Shown here one piece after another: positions 46,387 through 54,042 of a DNA stretch of 64,000 bases. Below the pieces are notes generated by a model. The model did not search any database. It saw only the letters and a list, made by a program, of their open reading frames with translations, and was not told the DNA's origin. A program made the translations under genes and the position numbers. The first letter of the stretch is position 1. Each line of letters begins with the position of its first letter. Origin of the DNA: a virus; IMG/VR virus record IMGVR_UViG_3300032241_000649, positions 24,723 to 88,722 of that record; one strand, written 5' to 3'.

Positions 46387-48005
46387 TACTGACCTCCAGC
46401 AGTTGTAGTTCCACCAGCTTGAGCGTTCAAAAGCTTCTTAGCTTGAGCATTTGTTACAGTTGTTGCTGTTGCTGGGTAACGAATAAATGTTACGTCTACA
46501 GTTGTAAACACTGGAATCATATCCTCAGTAAAGATTACATGGTTTACTGATAAGCTAGCAAGAGAACCAAAATACCTCATGTTATCATTAATATGTAACC
46601 AAAATGGCATTCCAGTAATAAAACCTAAATCAGAAGATTTACCCTTATCCGCAAGAAGAGCTTGATTAGGTTGTGGATCCCCATTTACAACTCTGTACAA
46701 ATATTCTAAATCATATTCAGTACCACGAGTTTTAATACCTTTAAGTGCTGTAGGAGAAAGGGGTTTTCCTGGATATCCACTACCACCTTTGCCTGCGTTT
46801 ATAGCTTTAACGTCAATAACTCTATTTAAGTATAGTTCAAAAGACACTGCAGTATTACCACCAAGAGCATTAGATGGATCTGCTTTACCAAGGGTCCAGT
46901 CATTACTTGTATCTGTATTTGTACTGTAGGAAATACTTGTAGGATTATACATAAACTTAAATCCCCAAAGTTTCTTTTCTGGATTCTTTGCAGACAAAAG
47001 ATATGTGTCTTGATACATACGTCCCATTTGACTATTGTTGTAAGCCTCAAGTGTTGCAACTGACATAGGCTTACCAGTCACCCAATCAATGTTTCCACCA
47101 GCTTGAGATTCTAATACATCAGTAAACCGTACACCTTTAGTGTTTAAATGCGGAGGAGGATTCCATTGATCTCCAGACATTCCTTTATCTGCATCAACTC
47201 CAGTATTACCTGTAGTGTTAGTTGATCCAGATCCTGGACTAGGCTTATACGTAGTTGACTTTCCAATAATAATAAGCTTATTAGCAGCAGCTGTTGCAGC
47301 AGAATATGTTTTATATGATGTTACAGTGTATTTTCCAACACTGCTGCTAGCCGGTGCGCTATAAGGTTTTGACCAATACGGTCCAGGAAATGTATACGTA
47401 AAGAATACTCCAGCTACATCTGCTACGACAATCCAAGTTTTAGTATTTGTATTAAATACTTTTTGCTTTATGCTGCTTCCAAGAAAATCTTGAATAGTAG
47501 ATGGAAACGGTGTATTTAATGCCCCAGTCCAAGTAATTGTTATTGGAAATACATTAGAGCTAGGATTAACATCGCCATATCCAGTGTAAGGCCCACCATT
47601 TAAAGTTACAGCAATACTAGAATTAGGATCAAATCTTACTGTAAATTGACTAGGGTCTATTTTTGTAGGTGTATTAGGAGTTCCAGGATTTATGATAAAT
47701 ACCCAGTGATCATTAAGTCCAGCACTTTTAGTAGTTCCATCATCTGAAACATTATACACACGCCCGTTAGTTGTAGTCACATTCATGCCGAGTCCATTAT
47801 CAATGGCTCTATTAGTGCTATCTTCATATACTCTTACATCAACTAATATAGCGCTGTTAACACTAACCGTTCTTGATTTAGTACCTGGAGAAAGTTTATT
47901 CCAAGCGTCATCTGTAAAGTTAAGTGATCCAGAATAATCATATGCGGAGATACCCCACTCATACAAATCTACTGTATAGTGAACCCCAGGAATAATTGTA
48001 GTCAT
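46386..48005 (-). CDS. tail/baseplate protein between tape measure and LysM protein
   Basis: 539 residues. N-terminal beta-rich part (VRVYEDSTNRAIDNGLGM; TKIDPSQFTVRFDP), Gly/Ser-rich linker around 255, and a C-terminal half with WGFKFMYNPTSISYSTNTD and FWLHINDNMRYFGSLASLSV, typical of baseplate/tube-initiator proteins preceding LysM proteins. Probably tube initiation or hub adaptor. Coupled to both neighbours by TAATG. Confidence 0.65.
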   Translation of the reverse strand: MTTIIPGVHYTVDLYEWGISAYDYSGSLNFTDDAWNKLSPGTKSRTVSVNSAILVDVRVYEDSTNRAIDNGLGMNVTTTNGRVYNVSDDGTTKSAGLNDHWVFIINPGTPNTPTKIDPSQFTVRFDPNSSIAVTLNGGPYTGYGDVNPSSNVFPITITWTGALNTPFPSTIQDFLGSSIKQKVFNTNTKTWIVVADVAGVFFTYTFPGPYWSKPYSAPASSSVGKYTVTSYKTYSAATAAANKLIIIGKSTTYKPSPGSGSTNTTGNTGVDADKGMSGDQWNPPPHLNTKGVRFTDVLESQAGGNIDWVTGKPMSVATLEAYNNSQMGRMYQDTYLLSAKNPEKKLWGFKFMYNPTSISYSTNTDTSNDWTLGKADPSNALGGNTAVSFELYLNRVIDVKAINAGKGGSGYPGKPLSPTALKGIKTRGTEYDLEYLYRVVNGDPQPNQALLADKGKSSDLGFITGMPFWLHINDNMRYFGSLASLSVNHVIFTEDMIPVFTTVDVTFIRYPATATTVTNAQAKKLLNAQAGGTTTAGGQ

Positions 48006-50806
48006 TAGTACCTACCCACTTGTTCTTTACGTAGTTTATCTGCAACAGCTTTATTTACCGCATTAATAATTAATTCAGTTGCTACTGTTCCAGGATGATT
48101 CATTTTAAGGTTAATACCTACATTAACATCAATACTTGATCTAGCATTGATATTTGTACTATGTGTCCCACTGCTTGAGGAAGTAGAATGAGAAGGCATA
48201 GTAGCTACAGCAACACCAGCTGGGGATGTATTAGGTCCGCCTGCTCCAGGAATATAAGTACCCCAAGGAGAATGGTTAACTGCTTTTAATACAGACATAG
48301 TGTTATTGCCTTTTTTAAGAGCGCTCAGAATAGGACCATAGCGACCATTCTTTAAAGTTTCAATAGTTGCTTGATATCCTTGAGACCAAGAGGTGTATGA
48401 CTTAACACCTTCGTTATTCATATTAGTTGCACCAGTGGCAGGCTGTTCTGTATTTAGGGGATTGTAGTGGGCACTGTTATGCCACTGTCCACCTTCCCAT
48501 GCAGCCCAAGTAGTCAAAGCTTTAATGTTATCTGAGGTAGTAGGATACTTAAGCTTTTGTAATAAACTCTTAGCCCAACTACGAGAATCTCCTGTACCGA
48601 GAATAATTCCAGAATCATTAATAACTTGGCCATTTGAATAAGCCTTACCGCCATTAGATAAAATACCATTGCTAATAGTATTAGCAGCATCACCGCTAGC
48701 TAATAGGTCTTTTAAGCTAGTAGAACCTAAGGCATTATTTTTACCAGATATTACTCCAGCACCAGCAAACATAACAGTGGTGTCATTATCAGATGCTTTT
48801 GGATTAAGTTGCTGATTAAGCGCATTGGCTTTAATAATAGCTAGCGGACTTATAGACCTACCATTTTTATCTCTAATTTCAAAGTGAAGGTGTGGGCCTG
48901 TAGAGTTTCCTGCTCCAGGTGCGCCCTTAACACCACCGCTATGGCCAATTACATCTCCACGCTTTACCTGTTGTCCTTGACGCACAGATATAGTTTTTAA
49001 GTGGGCATATAAACTTTGCTTATTTCCATGATTAATAATTACGTGGTTACCATAACCACCACTGTTTCCTACATAAGAAACTACACCATCTGCGGCAGCT
49101 GTAACTGCTGTTCCTGGCTTTACTCCAAAGTCTACGCCTGGGTGGAACCCAGCTTTAATTCCTTTGCCGCCTTTTCTGTTACCAAAGCCTGCTGTAATAG
49201 TAGGGCTTCCAGAAACAGGCATGCCTGCATCACTAGCAGCATTTGATATTCCGGATCCTACTTGTGTATGGGATGTATTTGGGCCGCCACTACCAAATAG
49301 TTGACCAATTAGGTCTCCACCGCCACCAACTAATCCACCAACTAAAGCACCAGGAAGTCCACCAAAAATTCCTCCACCAGCTGCACCTATACCCGCATTT
49401 TTAAGTAGGCTGCTCCAGTTAAATCCTTTATGTCCTTTTCTATCTTTATATCCAGAGTATGCACTAAGCAGCGCTCCAAGAATAGGAATGCCCTTACCTA
49501 ATCCTTTACCTAATCCAGAAAGTAATCCCCCGCCTTCAGCAGCAACTGTTCCGTCACCTTTACCTATAACACCTTCGAGTCCGCTGAGCAATGCTTTGTT
49601 TCCAGCACGTTGCATAAGTAGAGACGCGCCTAATCCACCGAGACTAGATACTGTGCCGCCTACTCCACCTAATCCAGGAAAAGTTTGCAGTACTCCTTTA
49701 AGTTTACCTAAAAGGTCTGTTACTTGTGGAAGTTGATTAGCAAATGCAGTTAATCCATTGTTTGCTGCAGTAGCAGCATCAAGTGCTCCTGTATAACCAG
49801 AAACTAGTCCGCCCTGTGTAGCTGTAGTAAGATTAGATTGGCTAGTATTATAATTAAACGCAGTACGAATAGGGGCGCCTTTAGCCACACCAAGCATATT
49901 AAGAGCATTGGTAGATCCACTAAGAGAACTGGAAGATAAAGCCTTTCCGCCATTTTTTGCACGTGCAACAATACCCATGATAATTTCATTAGCTAATCCA
50001 GGATCTCCAGCTACTTGACGAATAGCGTTACCGCCTGGGCTTCCTGGGTTAAGAAGCATCATGGCTTGTTCTTTAGTTATATCATTTTTACCACGATAAA
50101 TAAAGTTCCAAACACTATTAATAATTTGGTTCATAGGTAGTAGCTGACCATTGCTATCACGAATACGAACACCCATACGTAAGAACGACATTCCGTTTGC
50201 ACTAGCTGCAGACGCAGCTGCCTGTTCGTTAGTCATTCCTGTTAGTGCACTTAAGCCACCAACCTGAGACATAATATTCTTTGAGCTTAATGTATTGGCT
50301 AAATAACCACCAGTATATGCAACAGTCATTGCTGCCATAGTTGGGCTAGTTGCACTTGTAGCGCCATTGCCCACTAGGCGATTAGATTGGCGCATAACAC
50401 CAGAAGCAGACATTCCGCTTAAGCCTGCAATAGTATCTGCAGAAGTTCTAAGTGCTACAGCAGAAGCTGTGCTTGGCATTAAACCCATGCCCAAAGAACC
50501 AGCAGCCATTACGCCCATGCCTACTTTGCCAAGTACACCCATACCTGAACCGGTAGGCATATCTGGCATATCAAGAGTAGATTTGCCCTTAGAACCGCCC
50601 GTTAAATTTTTAGAGATAGAGTCTGAATCTTTTTTGGCTTTAGCAAATGCGTCGCTAACAGATTTAGCGGCATCAATCATAGACTTCTTAAAATAGGTTA
50701 CGAAGCCAATAGCGCTTTTTTCTACGCCAGCCATTTCAGCATCAGGACCCTGTGGTTTAAAGCCAGAGGGTTCACTGTCTGAATTATCAAATAAGTTCAT
50801 TGACAT
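48005..50806 (-). CDS. tape measure protein with M23 peptidase and lysozyme-like domains
   Basis: 933 residues. N-terminal helical and Gly/Ala-rich parts (hydrophobic GMGVMAAGSLGMGLM near 95-110). M23/LytM endopeptidase domain about 535-660: H555, D559 (HPGVDFG), H602 and HLHFEI (H639, H641), the complete zinc set. A second domain about 742-855 (WAAWEGGQWHNSAHYNPLN, SWSQGYQATIETLKNGRYG) resembles lysozyme/transglycosylase-type modules of phage tape measures. It sets tail length and locally digests the wall during injection. Starts close behind the frameshift extension of the chaperone gene. Confidence 0.88.
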   Translation of the reverse strand: MSMNLFDNSDSEPSGFKPQGPDAEMAGVEKSAIGFVTYFKKSMIDAAKSVSDAFAKAKKDSDSISKNLTGGSKGKSTLDMPDMPTGSGMGVLGKVGMGVMAAGSLGMGLMPSTASAVALRTSADTIAGLSGMSASGVMRQSNRLVGNGATSATSPTMAAMTVAYTGGYLANTLSSKNIMSQVGGLSALTGMTNEQAAASAASANGMSFLRMGVRIRDSNGQLLPMNQIINSVWNFIYRGKNDITKEQAMMLLNPGSPGGNAIRQVAGDPGLANEIIMGIVARAKNGGKALSSSSLSGSTNALNMLGVAKGAPIRTAFNYNTSQSNLTTATQGGLVSGYTGALDAATAANNGLTAFANQLPQVTDLLGKLKGVLQTFPGLGGVGGTVSSLGGLGASLLMQRAGNKALLSGLEGVIGKGDGTVAAEGGGLLSGLGKGLGKGIPILGALLSAYSGYKDRKGHKGFNWSSLLKNAGIGAAGGGIFGGLPGALVGGLVGGGGDLIGQLFGSGGPNTSHTQVGSGISNAASDAGMPVSGSPTITAGFGNRKGGKGIKAGFHPGVDFGVKPGTAVTAAADGVVSYVGNSGGYGNHVIINHGNKQSLYAHLKTISVRQGQQVKRGDVIGHSGGVKGAPGAGNSTGPHLHFEIRDKNGRSISPLAIIKANALNQQLNPKASDNDTTVMFAGAGVISGKNNALGSTSLKDLLASGDAANTISNGILSNGGKAYSNGQVINDSGIILGTGDSRSWAKSLLQKLKYPTTSDNIKALTTWAAWEGGQWHNSAHYNPLNTEQPATGATNMNNEGVKSYTSWSQGYQATIETLKNGRYGPILSALKKGNNTMSVLKAVNHSPWGTYIPGAGGPNTSPAGVAVATMPSHSTSSSSGTHSTNINARSSIDVNVGINLKMNHPGTVATELIINAVNKAVADKLRKEQVGRY

Positions 50807-50819
50807 CTATCTTCACCAC

Positions 50820-50963
50820 CTATCTTGGTCTATTTAGGGCCTTAGTAATCCACATAATCCGTTCTCTCAATGAGAGATTACGGATATCGTTCAAACTCCA
50901 TCCTGGATAGAACTTAGTCAATATGTCATACATATCAACTAGGAGCTCGTAGTCAACCTCAAC
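50820..50963 (-). CDS. tail assembly chaperone extension, reached by +1 frameshift
   Basis: 47 codons in the +1 frame past the stop of the chaperone gene: VEVDYELLVDMYDILTKF, YPGWSLNDIRNLSLRERIMW, ending ITKALNRPR. There is no SD and the only ATG is internal. At the end of the first frame lies TTG-TTT-CGT-TGA; a tRNA-Phe slip from TTT to TTC (TTTC) joins the frames just before the stop. The fused product would span 51783 to 50820. Position between tube and tape measure is where phages encode frameshifted chaperones. Confidence 0.7.
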   Translation of the reverse strand, partial: VEVDYELLVDMYDILTKFYPGWSLNDIRNLSLRERIMWITKALNRPR

Positions 50964-51783
50964 GAAACAAATCTGCCAGGGTTAGTGGCAGCGGTACCTC
51001 CTGGCCGCAGGATTGACATGGTTTAGTTAGTTCGCCTAATTGTGGACCGGGGTTACGATTTGATATCTCTTCTAACAACTTACGGCGTGTAGCAACGCTC
51101 AGCTTGCGAATCTGATCTATGCTAATTACTGCCGCATCATTAATGGATATGATACACCCCATAAGTATAATTGAATCAATTTCCGCAGATGTTTTATCTG
51201 TAGAATTTACAATAGCCTTTTGGGTATCTCCTGTAGGGAGCTTTACCTTTACATCTCCTGAAGCAGTAGAGACTGTAAATACACGATCTTCTTCATTAAT
51301 AAGCTTTGTCTTTACATCTTTAGCTAAATCAACTTCAAATGTCTGAACTTCAGCACAGAATGGGCAAGGTCCAGGACCTAACTTAATCTCTGATCCAAAA
51401 GTGGCGTTTCTAATAGCCAAAAGGATCTGTTCTCTGTCTCCTGCAAGAAGGGCATCTAAGGTAGCCTTAGTTGCCTTCTCTTCACCGATCTTTACTGTGG
51501 CTCTTTCCAAGACTGTCATCAAGGCTTTGCCTGGATCATTTACCTTAGAAATTGCCTCTTCGTCAGCTCCATTAAGCTCACGAATTTCTGCTGTATCAAT
51601 TAATCCCACGAAAGGATCTAAGAAACCACCAGGAAGCTTAACCTCTGTCTCAGGAGGCAACTGCACCGCAGTCTTTACGACTGGGGCAGCTGGCTCCTGA
51701 GCAGCGGACATTGCTTCTGCAGCTAGCTGGTTAGCTAGTGCTGGATTTTCTACTGCGCTAATTGTGTTCGAATCTGTAGTCAT
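50959..51783 (-). CDS. tail assembly chaperone, first-frame product, with Cys knuckles
   Basis: 274 residues. Pro/Ala-rich N-terminus, a helical middle (ERATVKIGEEKATKATLDAL) and two CxxC-type knuckles: PCPFCAEVQTFEV and PCQSCGQEVPLPL near the end. Located between tube and tape measure, the position of tail-tube chaperones. Its short downstream frame suggests the usual two-product system. Confidence 0.7.
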   Translation of the reverse strand: MTTDSNTISAVENPALANQLAAEAMSAAQEPAAPVVKTAVQLPPETEVKLPGGFLDPFVGLIDTAEIRELNGADEEAISKVNDPGKALMTVLERATVKIGEEKATKATLDALLAGDREQILLAIRNATFGSEIKLGPGPCPFCAEVQTFEVDLAKDVKTKLINEEDRVFTVSTASGDVKVKLPTGDTQKAIVNSTDKTSAEIDSIILMGCIISINDAAVISIDQIRKLSVATRRKLLEEISNRNPGPQLGELTKPCQSCGQEVPLPLTLADLFR

Positions 51784-51808: not shown

Positions 51809-52453
51809 TTAACGATTTTGATTGGTTCCACCAGCACCAAATGGAGCTGCTGAACCGGTGGCTGTTAGATCCTTACCGTATCTAACGTCAAAACCTTCAT
51901 GTACAAGTTGCATATCTTCAACCATAAATGCATTAGCACCTGCATCAAGATTGCTGTATGTAAGGTTTGTAATCCATGCATTGTATACATAGAAACGCAT
52001 AGAAGTGTGAGCTTGAATCTCATCTGCTGCTTCATATCCAGAACCGTTGTTTACAACAGGATTTGGATGGCTAAGAACTTGGATTTCCAAGTCGCAGCGA
52101 AAATCTACACCTGCACCAGAATTAGTGTTAGGAGTAAGAACTGAGAACAGCTTCTTCATCCAGTCCATGTTTCCAGACCCACCCAACATAGCACCCTTAG
52201 AAAGAGTGATAGGTGTAAATGAAGTTTGGCCAGGAATCTGGTGAACGCTGGTATTGAATCCGCCTTCACGGTACGCAATTGACTCAGTTGTGATGCTGAG
52301 ACCTGACACCGAGACGAAACCCATATTTCCAGTCAAAGTTGACCAAGAAGCATCTGTTGATCCAGCTTTTGGCTTAAAGCTCACAATGAACTTAAAATTA
52401 CGAATTGGATCAGTTTGGATACCACTTAGAGGTAATGTATTTGGAACTGTCAT
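51809..52453 (-). CDS. tail tube protein (gp19-like)
   Basis: 214 residues. DPIRNFKFIVSFKPKAG, FVSVSGLSITTESIAYREGG and LEIQVLSHPNPVV match the T4 gp19-like tube family, with the long beta-hairpin region near FNTSVHQIPGQTSFTPITL. Forms the inner tube of the contractile tail, inside the sheath encoded just upstream. SD AAGGAG. Confidence 0.85.
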   Translation of the reverse strand: MTVPNTLPLSGIQTDPIRNFKFIVSFKPKAGSTDASWSTLTGNMGFVSVSGLSITTESIAYREGGFNTSVHQIPGQTSFTPITLSKGAMLGGSGNMDWMKKLFSVLTPNTNSGAGVDFRCDLEIQVLSHPNPVVNNGSGYEAADEIQAHTSMRFYVYNAWITNLTYSNLDAGANAFMVEDMQLVHEGFDVRYGKDLTATGSAAPFGAGGTNQNR

Positions 52454-52467
52454 TTTATGTTATCTCC

Positions 52468-54042
52468 TTATGCCGTAGCGTTTGCTGTGAGTTGTCCCAA
52501 GGTAATTTCAATGTACTCTGCTGGGTACTCTAGAGCAACACCAACAGTGATGTTTACAGTACCGTTAAAGATATCTGTAAATGTGTTGTTAGTGCTGTCG
52601 CAGGTTACATAGAACGCTTGGGTGGCGCTTGCGCCACGAAGTCCACCTTGTTGCCAGTACTGCATCAAGAATGTTCCTAGAGCTGTACGGAGTTGACCCC
52701 ATAGACGCTCATCGTTATTCTCAAAGATAGCAAATGAGCTAAGGCTCTTTAGTTCCTTCTCAATGTAATTGAGGGAACGACGAATGTTGATATAGCGGTT
52801 ACGTGGATCTGAATCCAATGTACGACCACCCATAACAATGATGCCTACACCAGGAATCTGACGGATCGCGTTGATGGCATTTGTATGTCCATTCAAAGAA
52901 TCAAGATCACTGTTTGTTAGCTGAGACTCTGTAGAAACTGCTAGAGCAACACGATTGCCATAACCAGCTGGAGTCTTCCAAACACCACGAGAAGCATCAG
53001 TAGCTAGGTACTGACCAACCATCGCAGCACCAGGAGCCTGGAGGCGAAGAGCACCAGGAGCGGCACTTAGTGAGTTAGGAATTTGAAGCCATGGATAATA
53101 AGCTGCTGCAACATTGCCTGTTGAAGAAGCTGCAAATGTTGAGACTAGGTCATCAACATATCCTTCTACATCTGATACAGAGTATGAACTTGGTGAATCA
53201 ACAACTACAAAGGCATCCCCACGACCTGCTGCATAAGCAACAGCATCAGCTTGGATTTCCTTAGATAGTAGAAGATCATCTCCAACGTCAGTTGTAATGT
53301 TATATAGATAAGCAGCATCTGGTAGATTGAAAACCAATGGATTATCAATTACATCAAATGCACTAAGAGAGGCCGCATAGTCTGAGCGACCAGGGGCTGA
53401 TACTGGATCAGTTCCACCGCTTAGAGAAGCATTTGGTGCTACAGCTGGAATGTTAGTTGGGGCTGCAGAAGTAGAACCAAGATCAGTAGCTGTAACTAGA
53501 TTAGAGTTTGTGTTGATAATGTTAACAGCATAGTGTGAGTCAGTAGAAGACATTTTAAGATCACGGTGTGTCTCAACAAGTGCTGTTGATGCACGACCAT
53601 TAACTACTGTAGTCTGAAAAATTTGGATGTTAAAACGTCCAATTCCAGATCCTGCTTTAACTGCTACTGAAAGGTTGTTACCCCATGATCCAGCGTTCTT
53701 TGCAGAAATCTGAAGAGTTGGGATAGATGATCCAGAGCTATCATTTAGATTGATAGATGCTGTGTCAGAAGAGCCACTGATACGCTTTACGTATAGTGAA
53801 CGTCCACCGTTTGCGAAGAAATTAAAGGCTGCCCATGTTGTTGGGTAAGCGTCATTAAGGGATCCAAAGGTACGGACGAAGTCTGTCCAGCTTTGAAGTA
53901 GTACCGGGACATTGGTTGGACCTTGGCTTAGAACACCAACAAACGCGCCAATTGCAGCGCCAGTGTCAGGCAAGGTTACGACCTGTGGAAGCGGTACTTC
54001 CTGAATAAAGACGCCGGGACGACCATTACTGTATGTAGTCAC
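52468..54042 (-). CDS. contractile tail sheath protein
   Basis: 524 residues from GTG 54042 (AAGGAG upstream). N-terminus GRPGVFIQEVPLPQVVTLPD, then AAFNFFANGGRSLYVKRISG, and C-terminal VWKTPAGYGNRVALAV and YINIRRSLNYIEKELKS are hallmark sheath regions. This proves myovirus morphology. Confidence 0.93.
   Translation of the reverse strand: MTTYSNGRPGVFIQEVPLPQVVTLPDTGAAIGAFVGVLSQGPTNVPVLLQSWTDFVRTFGSLNDAYPTTWAAFNFFANGGRSLYVKRISGSSDTASINLNDSSGSSIPTLQISAKNAGSWGNNLSVAVKAGSGIGRFNIQIFQTTVVNGRASTALVETHRDLKMSSTDSHYAVNIINTNSNLVTATDLGSTSAAPTNIPAVAPNASLSGGTDPVSAPGRSDYAASLSAFDVIDNPLVFNLPDAAYLYNITTDVGDDLLLSKEIQADAVAYAAGRGDAFVVVDSPSSYSVSDVEGYVDDLVSTFAASSTGNVAAAYYPWLQIPNSLSAAPGALRLQAPGAAMVGQYLATDASRGVWKTPAGYGNRVALAVSTESQLTNSDLDSLNGHTNAINAIRQIPGVGIIVMGGRTLDSDPRNRYINIRRSLNYIEKELKSLSSFAIFENNDERLWGQLRTALGTFLMQYWQQGGLRGASATQAFYVTCDSTNNTFTDIFNGTVNITVGVALEYPAEYIEITLGQLTANATA

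Follow-up and report, generated by a model that had tools for sequence, protein, structure and literature searches.

The locus considered here raises the question of how a short reading frame that lies behind a phage tail gene, partly overlaps it and has no conserved start codon comes to be translated. It is found on the minus strand of a 64-kb stretch of DNA, which we call the window, taken from an 88.7-kb IMG/VR virus record. The first of the two frames, ORF1 (51783..50959, minus strand), has 274 codons, as the preliminary description gave it, and encodes a 274-aa zero-frame product. It is part of a contractile-tail module in the order sheath (52468..54042), gp19-type tube, ORF1 and tape-measure-like protein, then hub, gp25-type wedge and baseplate J proteins. 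The upstream neighbour of ORF1 is the tail tube protein (Phage_T4_gp19; 51809..52453, minus strand; PF06841, E = 1.1e-22) and the downstream one a Gly/Ala-rich tape-measure-like protein of 933 aa with an M23 peptidase domain (48005..50806, minus strand; PF01551, E = 8.9e-30), so that the two frames occupy the interval between tube and tape measure that is characteristic of the G/GT pairs of tail assembly chaperones.

ORF1 matches the T4 gp26 family (PF12322 T4_baseplate, E = 1.5e-9; 38.3 bits, above the curated cut-off of 24.5) and also phrog_150, baseplate hub. Its AlphaFold2 model (pLDDT 85.5) resembles predicted T4-like baseplate hub assembly proteins in structure comparison. The top PDB match of the model is the HK97 tail assembly chaperone 2ob9, a weak one (E 0.064, Foldseek probability 0.98, TM by query 0.22), and a sequence search of the PDB with ORF1 gave no match. 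The identification of ORF1 as a tail assembly chaperone, proposed earlier, is supported by the flanking tube and tape-measure genes, the PF12322 match and the weak HK97 fold match.

The +1 frame is closed by stops just 5' of the overlap, then opens 20 nt ahead of the ORF1 stop and stays so as far as a TAG at 50822..50820, thus extending 139 nt beyond that stop. This segment, ORF2 (50820..50966, minus strand), consists of the slip-site Phe and 47 further codons and reads F-VEVDYELLVDMYDILTKFYPGWSLNDIRNLSLRERIMWITKALNRPR; if TTTC is read as a single Phe, an uninterrupted 320-aa fusion results. The +1 frame has a median pN/pS of 0.144, the two remaining frames 1.22 and 0.99, and a G-W and an R-E-R motif are invariant in ORF2 of 26 diverse members. 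Judged by these ratios the +1 frame is under purifying selection, which bears out the earlier remark that its 47 codons looked conserved. ORF2 is short and in isolates either unannotated or given a separate annotation, which would suit a decayed remnant or a frame open by chance, but its low pN/pS, its invariant residues and its presence in all relatives whose ORF1 stop could be read already refute that reading. Ten of the 26 members match PF06528 Phage_P2_GpE at E <= 0.1; the match of the window's ORF2 (E 0.0038, 17.1 bits) lies below the curated cut-off of 23. Other reading frames for ORF2 were considered and rejected as closed or not conserved.

The expression of ORF2 appears to be settled at the end of ORF1, which reads CTG GCA GAT TTG TTT CGT TGA. 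The slip site TTT-C occupies 50964..50967 (minus strand) and the zero-frame stop TGA, at 50959..50961 (minus strand), follows one codon past the slip codon. We collected 80 relatives, of which 78 had a readable ORF1 stop and 53 remained distinct after deduplication, the window included. The arrangement of ORF1 and ORF2 is the same in all 78. In all 53 distinct relatives the last Phe codon of ORF1 is TTT and the next base C or T, against 22 of the 234 remaining Phe codons of these genes. A search with a DNA pattern that left third bases free, permitted TTC and required the ORF2 motif after the site found TTT at 97 of 97 distinct sites. The same TTT-Y is kept in a distant freshwater clade, in BRock-like Streptomyces phages and in chromosomal Streptomyces and Terracoccus loci, in which Phe is more often encoded by TTC. 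The codon after the slip codon varies (CGN, CAR, CTT, TGA, TAA, TAG), while its first base never leaves C/T, as re-pairing of tRNA-Phe on UUY would require. Schwartz and Curran are said to have found in 1997 that UUU followed by a pyrimidine is prone to +1 shifting in E. coli. The slip of tRNA-Phe to TTC within TTG-TTT-CGT-TGA, which the preliminary description had put forward together with an alignment of relatives as a check, is supported by that alignment.

An independent start for ORF2 would have been an obvious way around a frameshift. In 27 of the 53 distinct relatives, however, no in-frame ATG, GTG or TTG precedes the conserved G-W core of ORF2, and where such a start is present, as in the window, its position varies. 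The statement that the second frame has no start of its own thus holds in the sense that none is conserved; it does not hold for the window taken literally, since there is an ATG at 50933..50931, 11 codons in, and a TTG further on, neither of which is conserved. Were that ATG used, the Tyr that is invariant at residue 6 of the +1-frame segment would also be lost. With an invariant TTT-Y at the overlap, a +1 frame under selection and no conserved start, +1 slippage of tRNA-Phe from UUU to UUY is very well supported, on sequence grounds, as the event that joins ORF1 to ORF2.

Several other ways of shifting were rejected. The -1 frame closes 20 nt past the ORF1 stop; ORF2, being in the +1 frame, does not fit the canonical tail-chaperone arrangement, in which an X_XXY_YYZ heptamer leads into a -1-frame ORF2. 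A rare A-site codon as the cause is contradicted by the frequency of CGT in the phage (22 per 1000). In-frame TTT-CGT is present in several other genes as well, and so the A-site codon alone cannot explain the shift and the dicodon alone should not suffice; as in-frame TTT-C dicodons occur in many other window genes, UUU-C is unlikely to cause strong shifting by itself. The genes of the window contain fewer in-frame TTT codons before C or T than expected (65 against about 112), as if shift-prone TTT-Y dicodons were avoided. No tRNA genes were found in the window.

Upstream of the slip site there are two further conserved elements, an internal Shine–Dalgarno (SD) sequence and a hairpin, both of which had been missed earlier. 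The SD, GGAGGT at 50996..51001 (minus strand), lies 28 nt before the slip codon, or 9 unpaired nt when the hairpin is folded. We grouped the close relatives into 70 clusters, less than 90% identical over the 240-nt stretch that ends 45 nt before the slip codon. Exact GGAGGT stands at -34..-29 in all 70, where codon usage predicts 4.65. The residue that precedes it is any of nine different amino acids, its codon always ending in G, and GGAGG is scarcely found elsewhere in these ORF1 genes. The combination GGAGG-N(22-30)-TTTY occurs once in the window, at the slip site, with 7.8 occurrences expected. An SD 3 nt before the slip codon, as in prfB, is not found, and an immediate SD of that kind was rejected, since the 14 nt ahead of TTT pair hardly better than background (-3.5 against -3.0 kcal/mol).

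The hairpin, CTGCCA-CTAACCC-TGGCAG (50973..50991, minus strand; arms 50991..50986 and 50978..50973), ends 5 nt before the slip codon. Three registers occur; in one or another of them all six pairs can form in 57 of the 70 clusters and at least five in every one, while random synonymous codons drawn by codon usage reach six pairs in 0.7% of rows and at least five in 12%. The 3' arm is fixed at -11..-6 and the 5' arm lies at -21, -24 or -27; all three registers encode the same amino acids, L-P-L-T-L-A, and in each of them the 3' edge is 4–6 nt from the slip codon. Over the 70 clusters the 27 nt before the slip codon have a mean folding energy of -9.5 kcal/mol, compared with -7.7 kcal/mol when synonymous codons are shuffled between rows. 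The hairpin columns hold CCG in 53/70 and GCG in 56/70 clusters, although these make up about 5% of the Pro/Ala codons elsewhere in ORF1, and shared ancestry alone does not account for the hairpin codons, given that third positions are close to saturated elsewhere. The predicted hairpin is thus kept through synonymous codon choice. The ORF1 tree implies eight or more changes of register. The permutation z for the hairpin is -14 and other windows reach -9, values that relatedness inflates and that we do not treat as probabilities, relying instead on the codon-usage expectation and the saturated third positions. Paired contrasts on well-supported branches, two pairs only, all agree or are neutral. 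SD and hairpin are both absent from the L067–L081 group and the related L221–L300 clade, where TTT-Y alone is kept, so the two elements travel together. An intrinsic terminator was rejected, merely three or four T following the hairpin by eye, and so was a downstream stimulatory structure, for which the z values are inconsistent (mean -0.25 over 50 nt and -0.9 over 80 nt). A second hairpin lies within ORF2, about 80–115 nt past the slip site (50847..50888, minus strand; CCGTAATCTCTCATTGAGAGAACGG, -13.6 kcal/mol); it is strong in the window and in some relatives, where it is kept with a changed sequence, and absent in others.

These elements suggest the following mechanism. As the ribosome passes, GGAGGU would pair with the 16S rRNA tail while the stretch between SD and slip site refolds as a short hairpin directly behind the E site, cutting the path from SD to slip site from 28 to 6–12 nt (9 in the window). 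The anchored SD and the folding hairpin would together draw one base of mRNA out of the ribosome and, with the A-site codon (CGN, CAR, CUU or stop) still waiting, would favour re-pairing in the +1 frame. In some ribosomes the peptidyl-tRNA-Phe on UUU in the P site would then slip one base forward to UUC, and these would append the 47-residue C-terminal domain to give the 320-aa fusion of a G/GT-type chaperone pair. The fusion, whose production and amount we infer, may work like lambda gpGT. In a 70S system, +1 shifting at CUUUGA has been found to increase when a hairpin stands upstream, adjacent to the E site, the effect reaching about 60% of that of an internal SD (PMC6321510), and hairpin zippering has been proposed as a forward motor in gene 60 bypassing (PMC5009743). 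The stimulatory SD of prfB acts 3 nt from the slip codon (PMC5009743) and the present one is 28 nt away, so the role of the SD here is assigned by analogy. GGAGGU and the hairpin, kept in all close relatives examined, probably push the ribosome forward, and we hold it highly probable that the explanation is right as a whole, that is, a chaperone ORF1, a +1 UUU-to-UUC fusion and its stimulation by SD and hairpin.

The same two elements could be read as an SD with a structured spacer, in the style of T4 genes 38 and 25, from which ORF2 would be translated on its own as a small protein. In the T4 split ribosome-binding sites an intervening hairpin brings SD and target together (PMC3014915), and the gene 25 site has this layout at the 26–25 junction: SD, hairpin and AUG, the SD being placed at the 3' end of gene 26, the homologue of ORF1, with a spacing that falls from 27 to 11 nt there (PMC3014915) and from 28 to 6–12 nt here. 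The AAGAGG and hairpin sequence at the 3' end of T4 gene 26 and the window's ATG 11 codons into ORF2 would fit such initiation. There is, however, no start codon where SD and hairpin would put it, the +1-frame codon at -5..-3 being ATT, ATC, AGT, ACT, AAT or others; the conserved residues of ORF2 begin upstream of the window's ATG, 27 of the 53 distinct relatives offer no start before the core, and the invariant TTT-Y would be left unexplained. We consider separate initiation very improbable. The T4 sites serve AUG initiation and not frameshifting, and since the T4 hairpin overlaps Phe codons we liken the element to T4 by layout and not by common descent; the shared layout of the gene 25 site and of the frameshift element at the gene 26 homologue may be a relic, a precursor or a coincidence.

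A better alternative accepts the +1 shift and takes UUU-Y to be sufficient for it; GGAGGU and the hairpin would then have another task, for example to pause ribosomes while the protein folds co-translationally, to stabilize the mRNA or to provide a coupling to the tape measure gene. It is a general property of internal SDs that they pause ribosomes, and the L221–L300 clade retains TTT-Y with neither element. The position of the hairpin edge, 4–6 nt from the slip codon in any register, speaks against a role detached from the shift, as do the hairpins of different sequence that other lineages have at much the same position and the many in-frame TTT-C dicodons of other window genes. An unstimulated shift is in our judgement unlikely, while deserving more weight than separate initiation.

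The stimulated +1 shift may be compared with known systems. With lambda gpG/gpGT (Xu, Hendrix and Duda; PMC5009743) it shares the position before the tape measure, a long ORF followed by a short overlapping one with no conserved start, a shift near the end of ORF1 and the expectation of a rare longer form; unlike lambda, the shift is +1 and not -1, a single tRNA slips on UUU-Y and not two on a tandem heptamer, and the stimulators lie upstream. Bacterial prfB (RF2) resembles it in the P-site slip onto an overlapping U-starting codon, the upstream internal SD and, in some members, the A-site stop; it differs in that the slip codon here is UUU-Y and not CUU-U, the SD is 28 nt off with an intervening hairpin and not 3 nt, and the stop usually comes 1–2 codons later than the slip codon (0–2 codons in the 53 relatives, with a stop directly in the A site in 6). 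The design of Huang, Cho and Chang (2018; PMC6321510) likewise has a refolding hairpin beside the E site that favours +1 on 70S ribosomes, though it is a designed 12-bp reporter hairpin replacing the internal SD, whereas a short natural hairpin accompanies the SD here. Influenza A PA-X uses UUU CGU. The amalgavirus UUU_CGN +1 motifs (PMC9559581, PMC6356274) have the same core, UUU CGU/CGN, and a presumed tRNA-Phe slip. Those motifs and that of PA-X work on eukaryotic ribosomes, with no SD and in unrelated genes, and the likeness is convergent.

The pattern extends well beyond the window's clade. In the Streptomyces phages BRock, LuckySocke, pSt2308 and GiJojo and in their metagenomic relatives, the slip site is TTT-C with GAGGT at about -33; nearly all of them also have a hairpin of different sequence, CCCAC..GTGGG, with pair-preserving variants. 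Relatives of the large phage LR756508 combine SD and hairpin with TTC-TTT-TGG. The +1 layout is also present in Bacillus SP-15, Listeria LIS04, a Streptococcus phage and Microcystis Mel-JY01, some of which show weaker upstream elements or none. The ORF1 homologue of T4 and of cyanophages (gp26, PF12322) is followed in cyanophages by a small ORF annotated gp51 (...YSLTELENMMPWERE...), which resembles ORF2 and shares with it the motif ..SLTE(I/L)..(M/L)...RE. In the cyanophage pair, unlike that of the window, ORF2 is in the -1 frame and follows U-rich sites, mostly U_UUU_UUC, an arrangement also seen in Vibrio KVP40, Sinorhizobium, Agrobacterium and Aeromonas phages and Lysobacter and Burkholderiales loci. 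In the T4-like gp26/gp51 pairs L209, L210, L212–L218 and L220 the U-rich site lies just before the gp26 stop. It is probable that the pairs of cyanophages, KVP40 and the Sinorhizobium, Agrobacterium and Aeromonas phages are unannotated -1 frameshifts, in which case gp26/gp51 may be a G/GT-type chaperone pair; one homologous chaperone pair is then apparently read via a -1 shift in some phages and via +1 in others. T4 itself has genes 26 and 51 on opposite strands, and the 3' end of gene 26 (L211, 4303..4345, minus strand) holds the gene 25 split ribosome-binding site with its SD, hairpin and AUG.

The window pair is thus supported, as far as comparative sequence can tell, as a G/GT-type chaperone frameshift that runs +1 on UUU-Y, with a conserved split SD–hairpin upstream in the window's clade. 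Stimulation of +1 shifting by upstream hairpins has been demonstrated with designed reporters (PMC6321510), and among open-licence papers we found no natural bacterial or phage case that unites internal SD, hairpin and UUU-Y, an earlier description in a subscription journal being possible. We lean, with caution, towards regarding GGAGGU, a refolding hairpin and UUU-Y as a distinct natural +1 class that would shift the ribosome mechanically and be widespread in contractile-tailed phages and actinobacterial chromosomal tail clusters, with Gram-negative members shifting in the opposite direction. Dozens of lineages conserve the element at synonymous sites, so the stimulation idea can be tested with natural variants, which offer presence and absence of SD and hairpin, three registers, and stop or sense codons in the A site. 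Recoding by +1 would also account for the small ORFs, unannotated or separately annotated, after gp26-like genes, among them those of Streptomyces phages that can be cultured, such as BRock.

In the chromosomal loci of Streptomyces and Terracoccus that carry genes for sheath, tube and a PF12322 protein, TTT-C is accompanied by stems of -11 to -17 kcal/mol and, in most of them, by GGAGG; these tail clusters may be prophages or injection systems. Among the contractile-tail clusters L337–L343, which come from Streptomyces and Terracoccus chromosomes and, for L342, from a metagenomic contig, the same +1 site is present, mostly together with an internal SD and a strong hairpin.
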